In this document: piece by piece, positions 36,830 through 41,951 of the stretch
Position numbering within the stretch: the first letter of the stretch is position 1
How the letters are laid out: every line of letters starts with the position of its first letter
Source: Flavobacterium jumunjinense
GTDB lineage: Bacteria; Bacteroidota; Bacteroidia; Flavobacteriales; Flavobacteriaceae
DNA length: 64,000 bases
Direction: 5' to 3'
Assembly (NCBI RefSeq): GCF_021650975.2
Contig: NZ_CP091285.1
Span: forward strand, 2,046,001-2,110,000
Program-made: the position numbers and the translations under genes
Notes under the pieces: generated by a model
Seen by the model: the letters and a program-made list of their open reading frames with translations, nothing else
Told to the model about the DNA's origin: nothing
The model's database searches: none

Positions 36830-36902
36830 GCGAAAATAGCTCAGTTGGTAGAGCGCGACCTTGCCAAGGTCGAGGTCGCGGGTTCGAATCCCGTTTTTCG
36901 CT
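36830..36902 (+). tRNA. tRNA-Gly (GCC)
   Basis: 73 nt with a GCGAAAA / TTTTCGC acceptor stem, an anticodon stem-loop with loop TTGCCAA (anticodon GCC), and a T-arm with GGTTCGAATCC. No CCA is encoded. The tRNA-Leu gene follows 19 bp later. Confidence 0.95.
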
Positions 36903-36921
36903 CAACTACCTAAAAATATTT

Positions 36922-37007
36922 GCTTGAGTGGTGGAATTGGTAGACACGCTGGACTTAAAATCCAGTGGGTAGTAATGCCCGTGCGGGTTCAAGTCCCGCC
37001 TTGAGTA
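36922..37007 (+). tRNA. tRNA-Leu (TAA)
   Basis: 86 nt with a long variable arm typical of class II tRNAs. The anticodon stem CTGGA/TCCAG encloses loop CTTAAAA (anticodon TAA). The T-arm contains GGTTCAAGTCC. The acceptor stem contains several G-T pairs. CCA is not encoded. Confidence 0.93.
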
Positions 37008-37008
37008 C

Positions 37009-37142: not shown

Positions 37143-38501
37143 ATGCAACTGTATAACACCTTAAGCGCAGAGGAAAGAGCAGAGCTTATCGATCAAGCTG
37201 GCAAACAACGTTTAACGTTGTCTTTCTATGCGTATGCAAAAATTGAAGACCCACAAAAATTTCGTAACGATTTATTTATTGCTTGGAACGCATTAGACGC
37301 TCTTGGTAGAATCTATGTAGCACAAGAAGGAATAAATGCTCAAATGAGTGTTCCTGCGGATAATTTCGAAGCATTTCGCGATACATTAGAAGTGTATGAA
37401 TTTATGAAAGGCATTCGTTTGAATGTTGCTGTGGAGCAAGATGATCACTCTTTTTTAAAATTGACAATAAAAGTGCGTCATAAAATTGTTGCAGATGGAT
37501 TAAATGATGAAACCTTTGATGTAACAAATAAAGGAATTCATCTAAAAGCAGCCGAATTTAACCAAATTTTAGATGACCCAAATACTATTGTAGTAGATTT
37601 TAGGAATCATTACGAAAGTGAAATTGGGCACTTTAAAGGAGCAATTACTCCAGATGTAGAAACATTCAGAGAAAGTCTGCCAATAATAAACGATCAGTTA
37701 AAAGATCATAAAGAAGATAAAAATCTTGTAATGTATTGTACCGGAGGAATTCGCTGCGAAAAAGCAAGTGCTTATTTTAAACATCAAGGTTTTAAGAATG
37801 TGTTTCAGTTAGAAGGAGGAATCATTCAATATGCAAAACAAATAAAAGAAGAAGGTTTAGATAGTAAATTTATCGGTAAGAACTTTGTTTTTGATAATCG
37901 TTTAGGAGAACGTATTACAGATGATATTGTATCAAAATGCCATCAATGTGGAAATCCATGCGATAATCATACGAATTGCGCGAATGATGGTTGTCATTTA
38001 TTATTTATTCAATGTGATAGTTGTCAGTCTATAATGGAGAATTGTTGTTCTACAGAATGTTTAGAAACAACGCATTTGCCATTGGCGGAACAAGTAAAAA
38101 TAAGAAAAGGAAAGCAAGTTGGAAACAAGGTCTTTCGTAAAGGAAAGTCAGAATCTTTAAAGTTTAAACAATCAGGAGATTTAACAGATTTAGCCTTGGC
38201 GACTGCTCCAAAAGCGAAAGATATTCGTCAGAAAATAAAAATCAAAAAGGTTTTAGTTGGTAAAGCAGAACATTATTATGTGAAAGCGCAAATTGGACTT
38301 TTTATTGTAGAAAATCAAGAAATAAAAATAGGAGACAAGATTTTAATTTCAGGTCCAACAACAGGGAATCAAGAATTGATTTTAGATAAAATGTTGGTAA
38401 ACGGAAAAGAGATTGATGTGGCTAAAAAAGGAGATAAAATAACTTTTGAAGTTCCTTTTAGAATTAGACTTTCAGATAAATTATTTAAAATTATTAAGTA
38501 A
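37143..38501 (+). CDS. trhO: Oxygen-dependent tRNA U34 hydroxylase TrhO with an added U32-type C-terminal domain
   Basis: 452 residues; E. coli TrhO (YceA) is about 350. Residues 1-110 are the N-terminal TrhO domain (GRIYVAQEGINAQMSV). Residues about 130-240 are a rhodanese domain with catalytic C199 (YCTGGIRCEKAS). A cysteine-rich zinc-like segment follows (CHQCGNPCDNHTNC and CDSCQSIMENCC). Residues 368-452 form an extra domain that aligns without gaps to the C-terminus of the next gene product, 48 of 85 identical by eye (GDKILISGPTTGNQEL, VPFRIRLSDK). TrhO makes 5-hydroxyuridine at tRNA position 34. The stop codon is directly followed by the TrhP start. Confidence 0.92.
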   Translation: MQLYNTLSAEERAELIDQAGKQRLTLSFYAYAKIEDPQKFRNDLFIAWNALDALGRIYVAQEGINAQMSVPADNFEAFRDTLEVYEFMKGIRLNVAVEQDDHSFLKLTIKVRHKIVADGLNDETFDVTNKGIHLKAAEFNQILDDPNTIVVDFRNHYESEIGHFKGAITPDVETFRESLPIINDQLKDHKEDKNLVMYCTGGIRCEKASAYFKHQGFKNVFQLEGGIIQYAKQIKEEGLDSKFIGKNFVFDNRLGERITDDIVSKCHQCGNPCDNHTNCANDGCHLLFIQCDSCQSIMENCCSTECLETTHLPLAEQVKIRKGKQVGNKVFRKGKSESLKFKQSGDLTDLALATAPKAKDIRQKIKIKKVLVGKAEHYYVKAQIGLFIVENQEIKIGDKILISGPTTGNQELILDKMLVNGKEIDVAKKGDKITFEVPFRIRLSDKLFKIIK

Positions 38502-39742
38502 TGACTACTTCTGGAAAAATTGAATTGATGGCTCCTGCTGGAAATTTCGAATCGATGCAGGCAGCTCTAGATAATGGTTGTGATTCAATCTATTTTGGTG
38601 TGGAGCAATTGAATATGCGGGCTCGAGCAACAGTGAATTTTGTTTTAGAAGATTTACCAGAAATTGCTCGAAGATGTAATGAAAAAAACGTTAGAACCTA
38701 TTTAACGTTAAATACAATTATTTACGACCATGATTTGTCGGTTGTAAAAACGCTTTTGTCTAAGGCTAAAGAGGCGGGCATTACAGCAGTTATCGCTTCA
38801 GATCAGGCGGTAATAATGACGGCAAAAACAATGGGAATTGAAGTGCATATTTCCACGCAGTTGAATGTAACAAATATTGAAACAGTTAAGTTTTATGCTA
38901 TGTTTGCTGATACAATTGTACTGTCGAGAGAATTAAGTTTACGTCAAGTAAAAAATATCACGGCCAATATAGAAAAGGAAGAAATAAAAGGACCAAGTGG
39001 AAATTTGGTAGAAATTGAAATTTTCGGACATGGTGCTTTGTGTATGGCAGTTTCTGGGAAATGTTACCTGAGCTTGCATTCGCATAATTCTTCTGCAAAT
39101 AGAGGAGCGTGTAAGCAAAATTGTAGAAAAAAATACACAGTTATAGATCAGGAATCTGGTTTTGAAATTGAAGTAGATAATGAGTATTTAATGTCGCCAA
39201 AAGACCTATGTACTTTGGATTTCTTAGATCAAGTAATAGATTCGGGAATAAAAGTGTTAAAAATTGAAGGTAGAGGTAGAGCTGCTGATTATGTGGCGAC
39301 AGTTATAAAAACCTATAGAGAAGCTATTGATGCGTATTATGAAGGTGTCTTTACAAAAGAAAAAGTTGATGTATGGATGCAAACTTTAGCAACTGTTTAT
39401 AATCGTGGTTTTTGGAGTGGTTATTACTTAGGTCAAAAGCTAGGAGAATGGTCAGATAATCCTGGATCTAGTGCTACACAAAAGAAAGTGTATGTGGGGA
39501 AAGGAATGCATTATTTTCCGAAATCTAATATTGCTGAATTTAAAATTGAAGCTTACGATATTAAAAAAGGAGATAAAATTTTAATTACAGGACCAAGTAC
39601 AGGTGCGCAAGAGCTGGTTCTAGAAGAAATGTACGTGAATGATGTAGATGCTGAAAAAGCAATAAAAGGAGATAGTTGTACTTTAAAAGTACCTTTTAGA
39701 ATTCGTTTGTCGGATAAAATGTATAAAATTGTAGCAAGTTAA
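38501..39742 (+). CDS. trhP: Peptidase U32 family protein, TrhP-type tRNA U34 hydroxylase
   Basis: 413 residues. The family signature is KIELMAPAGNFESMQAALDN with a TIM-barrel-like body. It has the conserved cysteine cluster GHGALCMAVSGKCYLS then ANRGACKQNCRKKY (about residues 175-212), likely iron-sulfur ligands, and DNEYLMSPKDLCTLDFL. The C-terminal domain (about 328-412) is the U32 C-terminal beta domain, shared with TrhO upstream. In E. coli TrhP makes 5-hydroxyuridine at position 34 using prephenate and depends on iron-sulfur biogenesis. Both routes therefore lie in one operon here. Its stop overlaps the start of the ferredoxin gene (TAATG). Confidence 0.92.
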   Translation: MTTSGKIELMAPAGNFESMQAALDNGCDSIYFGVEQLNMRARATVNFVLEDLPEIARRCNEKNVRTYLTLNTIIYDHDLSVVKTLLSKAKEAGITAVIASDQAVIMTAKTMGIEVHISTQLNVTNIETVKFYAMFADTIVLSRELSLRQVKNITANIEKEEIKGPSGNLVEIEIFGHGALCMAVSGKCYLSLHSHNSSANRGACKQNCRKKYTVIDQESGFEIEVDNEYLMSPKDLCTLDFLDQVIDSGIKVLKIEGRGRAADYVATVIKTYREAIDAYYEGVFTKEKVDVWMQTLATVYNRGFWSGYYLGQKLGEWSDNPGSSATQKKVYVGKGMHYFPKSNIAEFKIEAYDIKKGDKILITGPSTGAQELVLEEMYVNDVDAEKAIKGDSCTLKVPFRIRLSDKMYKIVAS

Positions 39743-40051: not shown

Positions 40052-40083
40052 TTGAAACCATTAACAAAATTATATTATCTTTA
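40052..40083 (+). promoter_or_regulatory. Promoter for ricT
   Basis: TTG at 40052-40054, a 21-bp spacer and TATCTTTA at 40076-40083 (one mismatch), 64 bp before the start codon. Confidence 0.45.
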
Positions 40084-40147
40084 CACTCAAAATACATTTT
40101 CGACAAGTAGTCACCGTAAAACGTGGCAATCAATATATAAACAAATT

Positions 40148-41479
40148 ATGGCATGTAATAACTGTTCCACAGGAACTAAAGACGGAGTTCCTAAAGGATG
40201 TAATAATAAAGGGTCATGTGGTACTGGAAGTTGTAATAAATTAACAGTTTTCGATTGGTTATCAAACATGACGCTTCCCCAAGGCCAAGAGCCTTTCGAT
40301 TGCGTAGAAATTAGATTTAAAAACGGAAGAAAAGAGTTTTTTAGAAATACAGAAAAGTTGACACTTTCAATGGGTGATATTGTGGCTACGGAAGCATCAC
40401 CAGGTCACGATGTTGGAATCGTATCTTTATCAGGAGAATTAGTAAAAATTCAAATGAAAAAGAAAAATGTGCCAATAGGAAGTGAATTGGCAAAAATATA
40501 TAGAAAAGCATCACAAAAAGATATTGACATTTGGAGCGAAGCTAGAAAAAAAGAAGAGGTAATAAGAATGCGTGCTAGAGAATTAGCAATCGCTCTAAAT
40601 TTGGAAATGAAAATTTCAGATGTTGAATTTCAGGGCGATAGCTCAAAGGCAACGTTTTATTACACTGCAAATGATAGGGTAGATTTCCGTCAGTTGATTA
40701 AGGATTTCGCAAGAGAGTTTAGTATTCGTATCGAGATGAAACAAGTAGGTTTTCGTCAAGAAGCATCTAGACTAGGGGGAATAGGTTCTTGTGGTAGAGA
40801 ACTGTGTTGTTCTACGTGGTTAACCGATTTTAGAAGTGTGAACACTTCAGCAGCTCGTTACCAACAATTGTCTTTAAATCCTCAAAAATTAGCAGGACAA
40901 TGTGGGAAGTTAAAATGTTGTTTAAATTATGAGTTAGATACTTATTTAGATGCATTGAAAGATTTTCCAGATTTAGATACAAAACTATACACGGAAAAAG
41001 GAAATGCAAATTGTCAAAAAGTTGATATTTTCAAGGAGTTGATGTGGTTTTCGTATGAAAATCAACCAGCACATTGGCATGTCTTATCTGTTTCTAGTGT
41101 AAGAGAGATTTTAGATTTAAATAAACAGAAAATTAGAGTTGAAGCAATTGAAGAATTCGTGGTTGAAACAACGAAAGAGATTGAGAATAATTTCCAAAAC
41201 GTTGTAGGGCAAGATAGTTTAACACGTTTTGATAATAAGACAAAAAAGCGCAGTAATAAAAGCAGTAATAAAAACAAAAAGCGTAGTAAGGTTGTGGTTC
41301 AAGGAGATGCAACAAAAACAATAAGCCGACCAAAGAAAGTAGATCAAAAACAGACAGCACAGCCAAAACAAGCAGCACAGCCGAAAAAACAGTCTACTTC
41401 TCCAAAGCAATCAGCTGCTCCTAAAAAAGCAAACCAATCGAAACCAATAATTAAAAAAAATGATTCTAAGAAAAAATAA
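40148..41479 (+). CDS. ricT: PSP1-domain regulatory iron-sulfur protein RicT
   Basis: 443 residues from ATG of MACNNCSTGTKDG. An in-frame upstream extension of 32 codons lacks the family start and lies within the promoter region. A cysteine-rich N-terminus (MACNNCSTGTKDGVPKGC, then GSCGTGSCNKL) precedes the PSP1 domain, whose cysteine clusters GIGSCGRELCC and GQCGKLKCC match RicT, a subunit of the [4Fe-4S] Ric/Y-complex in Bacillus. In Flavobacteriia the same gene is next to gldH. The last roughly 75 residues are a low-complexity Lys/Gln/Ala tail. The gene overlaps gldH by 20 bp. Confidence 0.9.
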   Translation: MACNNCSTGTKDGVPKGCNNKGSCGTGSCNKLTVFDWLSNMTLPQGQEPFDCVEIRFKNGRKEFFRNTEKLTLSMGDIVATEASPGHDVGIVSLSGELVKIQMKKKNVPIGSELAKIYRKASQKDIDIWSEARKKEEVIRMRARELAIALNLEMKISDVEFQGDSSKATFYYTANDRVDFRQLIKDFAREFSIRIEMKQVGFRQEASRLGGIGSCGRELCCSTWLTDFRSVNTSAARYQQLSLNPQKLAGQCGKLKCCLNYELDTYLDALKDFPDLDTKLYTEKGNANCQKVDIFKELMWFSYENQPAHWHVLSVSSVREILDLNKQKIRVEAIEEFVVETTKEIENNFQNVVGQDSLTRFDNKTKKRSNKSSNKNKKRSKVVVQGDATKTISRPKKVDQKQTAQPKQAAQPKKQSTSPKQSAAPKKANQSKPIIKKNDSKKK

Positions 41480-41951
41480 AATAATATTATTTTTTATAAT
41501 GTCGGTATTTTTTATTTCTTGTGATGAAAAAAGGGTATTTGACGAGTATAAAGAAATGGGAGGAGTATGGAAAAAAGAAGATGTAAAGCGTTTTGTTTTT
41601 AAACAAGAAGATACAATCAATCCTTATAATCTATTTTTGAATATTAGAAATACAAATGAGTATCCATTTAGAAACTTGTTTGTAATTGTTAATTTGAAAC
41701 AACCAGATAACCTAGTTAAGGTAGATACCTTAGAATATTTAATGACCAATCCGGACGGTTCTTTGTTGGGAGAAGGTTTTTCAGATGTTAAGGAAAGTAA
41801 GCTGTGGTATCAAGAAAAATTTGTTTTTAAGCAAAAAGGAGAATATGTTTTAGAAGTTCAACAGGCTTTAAGAGAAACAGGTAGTGTTTCAGGTGTTGAA
41901 GAATTAAAAGGAGTAACAGATATAGGTTTTAGAATAGAAAAAGTAAAGTAA
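41460..41951 (+). CDS. gldH: Gliding motility lipoprotein GldH
   Basis: 163 residues. A lipoprotein signal with lipobox at IMSVFFISCDEKRVFDEY (Cys near residue 21). The mature part FDEYKEMGGVWKKEDVKRFVF and LNIRNTNEYPFRNLFVIVNL is the GldH pattern. GldH is required for gliding motility in Flavobacterium, where the Gld lipoproteins act with the type IX secretion apparatus. The start is inside the end of ricT, so these are translated from overlapping frames in one transcript. PBP1A starts one base after its stop. Confidence 0.92.
   Translation: MILRKNKIILFFIMSVFFISCDEKRVFDEYKEMGGVWKKEDVKRFVFKQEDTINPYNLFLNIRNTNEYPFRNLFVIVNLKQPDNLVKVDTLEYLMTNPDGSLLGEGFSDVKESKLWYQEKFVFKQKGEYVLEVQQALRETGSVSGVEELKGVTDIGFRIEKVK

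Follow-up and report, generated by a model that had tools for sequence, protein, structure and literature searches.

Why does an oxygen-dependent tRNA hydroxylase end in a domain that also ends an unrelated enzyme? The question arises from a stretch of 64,000 nucleotides (here called the window) of the 4.68-Mb genome of Flavobacterium jumunjinense (NZ_CP091285.1, positions 2,046,001 to 2,110,000), where the product of trhO, a tRNA U34 hydroxylase (TrhO), and that of the following gene, a TrhP-like protein of the U32 type, carry the same C-terminal tail (Table 1). In Escherichia coli, two unrelated enzymes perform the same wobble-base reaction, one with oxygen and one without it. A domain that was copied from one enzyme type to the other and then retained under selection amounts to a swap experiment made by nature and hints at the role of the little-studied U32 tail; the prediction is that the shared element handles tRNA and takes no part in the chemistry. 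We found that the fusion is real, old and selected, and that the copying probably took place once, long ago. The full explanation toward which we lean, by a modest measure, is a single capture of a U32-derived domain by TrhO, which was retained and would act as an accessory tRNA-holding barrel. Literature searches among open-licence papers returned no description of a TrhO-U32 tail fusion in the text that those sources make accessible.

The tails of TrhO and of the U32 protein are homologous

By family membership, the window TrhO is predicted to be an O2-dependent enzyme forming 5-hydroxyuridine at position 34 (ho5U34). It scored 265 bits against the TrhO equivalog model of NCBIfam (NF001133; cutoff, 170), and Pfam placed UPF0176_N at residues 25 to 115, Rhodanese at 136 to 231 and Rhodanese_C at 245 to 306. 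The rhodanese core, the CTGGIR motif, a basic pair (K110 and R112) and the cysteine-rich Rhodanese_C are shared with E. coli TrhO (YceA, UPF0176) and with the proteins of PDB entries 9j5o (tRNA uridine(34) hydroxylase) and 4f67 (Legionella lpg2838). Aligned with E. coli TrhO, the window protein has CTGGIR (residues 199 to 204), K110 and R112 conserved, and the residues essential in E. coli according to PMC6599085 (C200, T201, G203, R205, K112 and R114) were all kept. The same paper describes ho5U34 formation by E. coli TrhO with O2, for which the CTGGIR loop and a basic sheet are required, and a requirement of TrhP for prephenate (PMC6599085).

The proteins differ at their C termini. E. coli TrhO stops at 350 residues and has no barrel, whereas about 145 residues past position 306 of the window TrhO were left blank by a whole-protein Pfam scan. 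The preliminary description had aligned the last 85 of these residues with the tail of the U32 protein without gaps and counted 48 identities. BLASTP gave the same picture: residues 368 to 451 of TrhO aligned to residues 328 to 411 of the U32 protein with 48 of 84 positions identical, 63 similar and no gap (E = 4e-27), the 85th position being a mismatch. A profile-profile comparison of 26 TrhO tails with 19 distant U32 tails gave a probability of 99.9% (E = 3.5e-37 over 88 columns). A chance resemblance is ruled out by these two E values, and the tails are homologous. The only copy of the tail found elsewhere in the genome was that of the neighboring U32 gene, with no third copy (whole TrhO as the query at E ≤ 1; the tail as the query at E ≤ 0.001).

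The Pfam model of the U32 C-terminal domain, PF16325, scored the TrhO tail at 16.2 bits, below its gathering cutoff of 28.2 bits, and gave no match to the window's own U32 tail at E ≤ 1. The model is thus narrow, and its label alone would miss the homology. The TrhO tail is nevertheless a U32 C-terminal barrel both by its homology to the tails of U32 proteins and by sharing the fold of the solved U32 C-terminal domain. This link to solved U32 tails comes from the fold and not from PDB sequence searches, in which neither the U32 profile nor the tail alone found a clear homolog and the tail profile returned weak EF-Tu matches only. The solved domain, from a Geobacillus protein (PDB 4he5 and 4he6), sits on a U32 protein and not on a rhodanese enzyme. 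A 2013 paper reportedly dealt with the crystal packing of the 10-kDa U32 C-terminal domain.

Fused TrhO proteins form a single clade

The distribution of the fusion was surveyed in Bacteroidota samples (395 genomes, 176 genomes of the order and 90 genomes of Weeksellaceae) and in E. coli. Among the matches listed for the 395 genomes, a TrhO core (E ≤ 1e-20) was present in 211 and a tail match in 176. TrhO was read individually in the window and at 58 fetched loci, 59 genomes in all; 33 of them encoded a fused protein and 26 a plain one without the tail. The fused proteins came from all 24 Flavobacterium genomes of the sample (the window's included), from Planktosalinus lacus, another genus of the same family (one genome, identical protein), and from all eight TrhO-bearing genomes of a family that we take to be Weeksellaceae from the names of near-identical proteins (Chryseobacterium, Epilithonimonas, Elizabethkingia, Kaistella and Bergeyella). 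The remaining 15 Flavobacteriaceae TrhO proteins were plain, at 342 to 359 residues. In the other 152 TrhO genomes, the open frames among the matches listed were too short for a fusion.

The second sample, of 176 genomes, had TrhO in 129. The match reached at least residue 450 in 36 of them (14 Flavobacterium and 22 Weeksellaceae) and ended by residue 372 in the other 93, a few of which were short pieces unable to show the end. Among the 90 Weeksellaceae genomes, a TrhO match (E ≤ 1e-30) was found in 25 and none in 65; 24 of the 25 proteins, from 6 of 33 genera, were fused, and one, a distant TrhO (59% identity), was plain. A fused TrhO was also present in a metagenome-assembled genome called Brumimicrobium. 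In a scan of named genomes, the best 80 places, with TrhO and U32 hits unsorted, all belonged to Flavobacterium, unplaced Flavobacteria or Bacteroidetes, or [Flexibacter] sp. ATCC 35103. The domain is therefore not universal in TrhO: as the preliminary description had said, it is missing from E. coli K-12 TrhO, and it was also missing from all 26 fetched plain proteins. Nor is the fusion a misjoined reading frame, since the frame was intact in all 33 fetched fused genes.

The cores of the fused proteins formed one clade, with support values of 100/97 in a tree of 58 rows and 98 in a quick tree with 19 more fused proteins (one very distant row was left out of both). Its early branches were Flavobacterium and Planktosalinus, and the Weeksellaceae cores were nested within it: a clade of fused Flavobacteriaceae proteins only was rejected (P = 0.003), as was one of all Flavobacteriaceae TrhO proteins excluding Weeksellaceae (P = 0.0002); the groups for the approximately unbiased (AU) tests were named after the first tree had been seen, so that the P values are optimistic. 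Since the early fused branches belong to Flavobacterium and Planktosalinus and a TrhO match is missing from 65 of the 90 genomes of Weeksellaceae, the fused gene was likely passed later from the Flavobacterium side to Weeksellaceae. This looks like the spread of a fused tRNA-modifying enzyme between families, from Flavobacterium to Chryseobacterium and its relatives.

The tail as a putative tRNA-holding barrel

Outside U32 proteins, the folds nearest to the tail were barrels of translation factors, namely, the C-terminal barrel of IF2 and domain 2 of EF-Tu, eEF1A and SelB, with 10 to 22% identity; the tail differs from these factors in having no GTPase. PF03144 (EF-Tu domain 2) matched 21 of 75 tails at E ≤ 0.1 (best E = 7.5e-8) and, with TrhO tails as the set, 11 of 26 (best E = 9.4e-5); single EF-Tu and IF2 sequences matched the tail weakly. 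Translation-factor barrels contact tRNA, and in EF-Tu and IF2 such barrels hold the acceptor end. Ten charged positions were conserved in both sets of tails (K3, K4, K9, E25, D33, D66, R77, D80, K81 and K84 in tail numbering; K368, K369, K374, E390, D398, D431, R442, D445, K446 and K449 in TrhO). In the window TrhO, residues 1 to 312 are acidic (charge, -16.6), the stretch from 313 to 367 is strongly basic (Table 1), and the tail has a charge of +4.6. As a side observation, one fused TrhO (P0127) carries a precomputed Pfam match to PF03144 besides its TrhO domains, alone among the proteins listed with it.

From its fold and conservation, the tail most likely serves in tRNA binding. It would be an accessory barrel, related in fold to those of IF2 and EF-Tu, that gives TrhO a second grip on tRNA at the end of a basic tether, and it may raise the affinity of TrhO for its tRNAs or widen their range, while catalysis would remain in the rhodanese core. 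The grip would be on either the acceptor end or the anticodon arm. According to PMC6599085, E. coli TrhO binds tRNA-Ala1 and not tRNA-Leu3, whose U34 is modified mainly via TrhP. A bolder proposal, which we put forward only tentatively, is that the C-terminal barrel of U32 proteins serves as a portable module, of the EF-Tu/IF2 type, for holding tRNA and that its copy gave the oxygen-type TrhO part of the tRNA range of the prephenate-type enzyme, so that two unrelated catalysts would read tRNA through one domain.

Several observations weigh against a role in tRNA handling and keep it at the level of the plausible. The tails are only mildly basic, with a mean charge of +1.8 over 33 TrhO tails (range, -0.8 to 5.6), so that the window's value lies above the average; the mean of 14 Flavobacterium U32 tails was +1.1. 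The window's own TrhO tail gave no match to PF03144, and barrels of this fold do other jobs too. The gene content does not speak for a tail that takes over the work of TrhP either. The TrhP-like U32 gene was absent from 11 of the 15 Flavobacteriaceae genomes with plain TrhO, and it was commoner in fused genomes (16 of 33) than in other TrhO genomes (54 of 178; Fisher P = 0.047, with kinship ignored). The tail is thus not what renders TrhP dispensable, and the idea that it replaced the need for TrhP is unsupported, because the TrhP-like gene was missing from 17 of 33 fused genomes but also from 124 of 178 others. Over the 395 genomes, TrhO alone occurred in 141, a U32 core alone (E ≤ 1e-55) in 107, both in 70 and neither in 77; with kinship ignored in these counts, the pattern fits alternative enzymes.

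Instead of binding RNA, the tail might dock a protein partner, such as another tRNA-modifying enzyme, the ribosome or a second TrhO in an oligomer. Small barrels often bind proteins, and the low mean charge of the tails suits such a role. The 17 fused genomes that have no TrhP-like gene indicate that the tail is not there solely to meet that protein, hence the partner would be some other one. However, the same tail sits on two nonhomologous enzymes that share tRNA as a known substrate (on the TrhP side this is known from E. coli and not from the U32 protein here), basic residues make up six of the ten conserved charged positions, and the nearest other folds are those of translation factors. 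We therefore regard docking as rather unlikely, if the strongest competitor of the tRNA-holding barrel.

Origin of the fused tail

Many Bacteroidota families have tails of this kind on their U32 proteins, whereas TrhO has them in one clade only, so the direction of copying was from U32 to TrhO, as the preliminary description had proposed. The domain was copied and not moved, since at none of the 16 fetched fused loci with both genes had the U32 protein lost its tail. In trees of the tails, those of TrhO formed one clade (96/89 with 75 rows; 97/93 with 88 rows, one of whose 13 additions, P0123, duplicates an existing row). They and the U32 tails from Flavobacteriaceae, from Weeksellaceae and from one genome of another family (f24) made up a set supported at 99/97 (88 rows), within which the TrhO tails joined the Flavobacterium U32 tails (98/94 with 75 rows; 89/93 with 88 rows). 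The expectation that the TrhO tails would branch among those of U32 proteins was thus borne out by these trees, but not to the exclusion of other placements.

Two test results count against such a simple pedigree. When the TrhO tails of the 88-row set were placed outside every Flavobacteriaceae and Weeksellaceae U32 tail, the tree scored 1.1 log units better than the free one and was not rejected (P = 0.54), so the identity of the donor is only probable; with fewer than 90 columns in the tail, deep forks are soft. A second capture was likewise not rejected for five Flavobacterium TrhO tails (L094, L095, L097, L098 and L099; AU P = 0.34 for their union with Flavobacterium U32 tails). These five are more U32-like than other TrhO tails, for example in KGTHFFPK and CTFKLPFRIR, and may reflect a second capture or a replacement. 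One capture in the ancestor of most fused TrhO proteins and another event in the lineage of these five would also suit the long stems of both tail groups (0.6 and 0.3 to 0.4). Such a double origin nevertheless appears unlikely, because the TrhO tails fell into one clade in both tail trees, as did the fused cores in theirs, and because the linker position was identical in all 33 fused proteins.

The junction and the gene order fit a single event at this locus. In an alignment of the 33 fused and 26 plain proteins, plain TrhO of the family ended at about KGRSEVLKFKK, around residue 344 and near the middle of the basic stretch of residues 313 to 367; the rest of that stretch is a linker found in fused TrhO only. 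In all 33 fused proteins the linker led into the first residues of the U32 barrel, KK (RK in L100), which places the junction at a domain border. Fused loci with both genes always had them on the same strand with trhO first (16 of 16; gaps of -1 to 1631 bases). In plain loci with both genes, they were also on the same strand (4 of 4; gaps of -29 to 243 bases), with trhO first in three (gaps of -29 to 10 bases) and the U32 gene first in the fourth. As the genes already lie side by side in plain relatives, their adjacency probably preceded the fusion.

Under the single-capture explanation, TrhO would have gained its last 85 residues in one copying event from the U32 gene of a Flavobacteriaceae-like ancestor, the most likely donor being the neighboring trhP-like gene. 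A possible route begins with the U32 gene duplicating in tandem downstream of trhO; a deletion would then have fused the trhO end to the final part of the first U32 copy, and the fused gene would later have been transferred to Weeksellaceae.

Gene conversion between the two tails is not supported

The preliminary description had also suggested gene conversion between the adjacent tails, which would maintain their likeness. The two genes are indeed adjacent on one strand, and both the U32-like character of the five Flavobacterium tails and the unrejected tree uniting them with U32 tails could be read in this way. In the 16 genomes with both genes, however, the DNA identity of the two tails was practically the same within genomes (0.614) as between genomes (0.611), and so was third-position identity (0.435 within and 0.442 between). 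The TrhO tail was nearer on average to the TrhO tails of other genomes than to its own genome's U32 tail in 15 of the 16; the exception, L099, has a U32-like tail. A pairing of the window's two tails was rejected (AU P = 0.0007), and a TrhP-like gene that could be a present partner is missing from four of the five genomes whose TrhO tails are U32-like. Conversion is thus very improbable, and on this comparison of sequences the likeness of the two tails is inherited.

The tail is under purifying selection

Over 66 nonindependent pairs with core synonymous divergence (dS) below 1.2, the median ratio of nonsynonymous to synonymous divergence (dN/dS), computed by the Nei-Gojobori method with our own script, was 0.095 for the tail and 0.032 for the core, and 20 positions were invariant across 26 TrhO tails. 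The tail has therefore been retained under purifying selection and, as it also persists in genomes that have no TrhP-like gene, it would serve TrhO itself. A functionless, neutral relic of the fusion might explain why the ratio is about threefold higher in the tail than in the core but is hardly credible, given a value near 0.1, the invariant positions, the absence of any broken frame among the 33 fetched fused genes and the presence of the tail in 24 of 25 Weeksellaceae TrhO proteins.

The neighboring U32 protein and the genomic setting

The gene following trhO had been called trhP. Its assignment to the U32 type held, but the TrhP identity is uncertain: the product scored 198 bits against the NCBIfam TrhP model, far below the cutoff of 534. 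"TrhP" is thus a working name, and we use "TrhP-like." Four cysteines (C181, C188, C204 and C208) were invariant across 42 aligned sequences, the window's included. Like E. coli TrhP (YegQ), with which it shares 32% identity, the protein consists of a U32 catalytic domain and a C-terminal barrel (PF16325 in the E. coli protein); it differs in being shorter, and its tail family is only weakly like the E. coli tail. According to PMC6599085, yegQ-type trhP is located mainly in gamma- and betaproteobacteria. The stop codon of trhO and the start codon of the U32 gene overlap in TAATG.

TABLE 1 Features of the trhO locus, with positions counted from the first nucleotide of the window
Feature	Position	Strand	Basis
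trhO, oxygen-dependent tRNA U34 hydroxylase with extra C-terminal domain, 452 residues	37143..38501	+	NCBIfam NF001133, Pfam domains, CTGGIR
TrhO residues 313-367, basic stretch after Rhodanese_C	38079..38243	+	33 fused and 26 plain C termini aligned; charge +9.9, isoelectric point 10.5
TrhO residues 368-452, U32-type C-terminal beta-barrel (copied domain)	38244..38498	+	
TrhP-like U32 protein, 413 residues	38501..39742	+	PF01136, 235 bits; nearest NCBIfam model TrhP; one-base overlap with trhO
U32 protein residues 328-413, donor-type C-terminal barrel	39482..39739	+	

A second U32 protein of the genome (625 residues; G000:C1:4208088-4209965, equal to L007:1276-3153) carries DUF3656, which the TrhP-like protein does not have. 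It is presumably RlhA-like. Its nearest NCBIfam model was also TrhP, at 176 bits (below the cutoff); with 198 bits for the TrhP-like protein, this model alone fails to separate the U32 types here.

Directly upstream of trhO lie genes for tRNA-Gly(GCC) and tRNA-Leu(TAA) (window positions 36830 to 37008), neither of which is known as a usual ho5U34 substrate. With E. coli CmoB as the query, no match was found in the genome, in a search run without a positive control. The best TrmR candidate of the genome was a 213-residue O-methyltransferase on contig C1 (L152:1492-2133, minus strand), which adjoins an rlmN-like gene and scored better with general O-methyltransferases, as also among its best PDB matches, than with TrmR. 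Farther downstream (window positions 40052 to 41951), a gldH-type lipoprotein gene begins within the gene for a PSP1-domain protein whose end is long and K/S/Q-rich.

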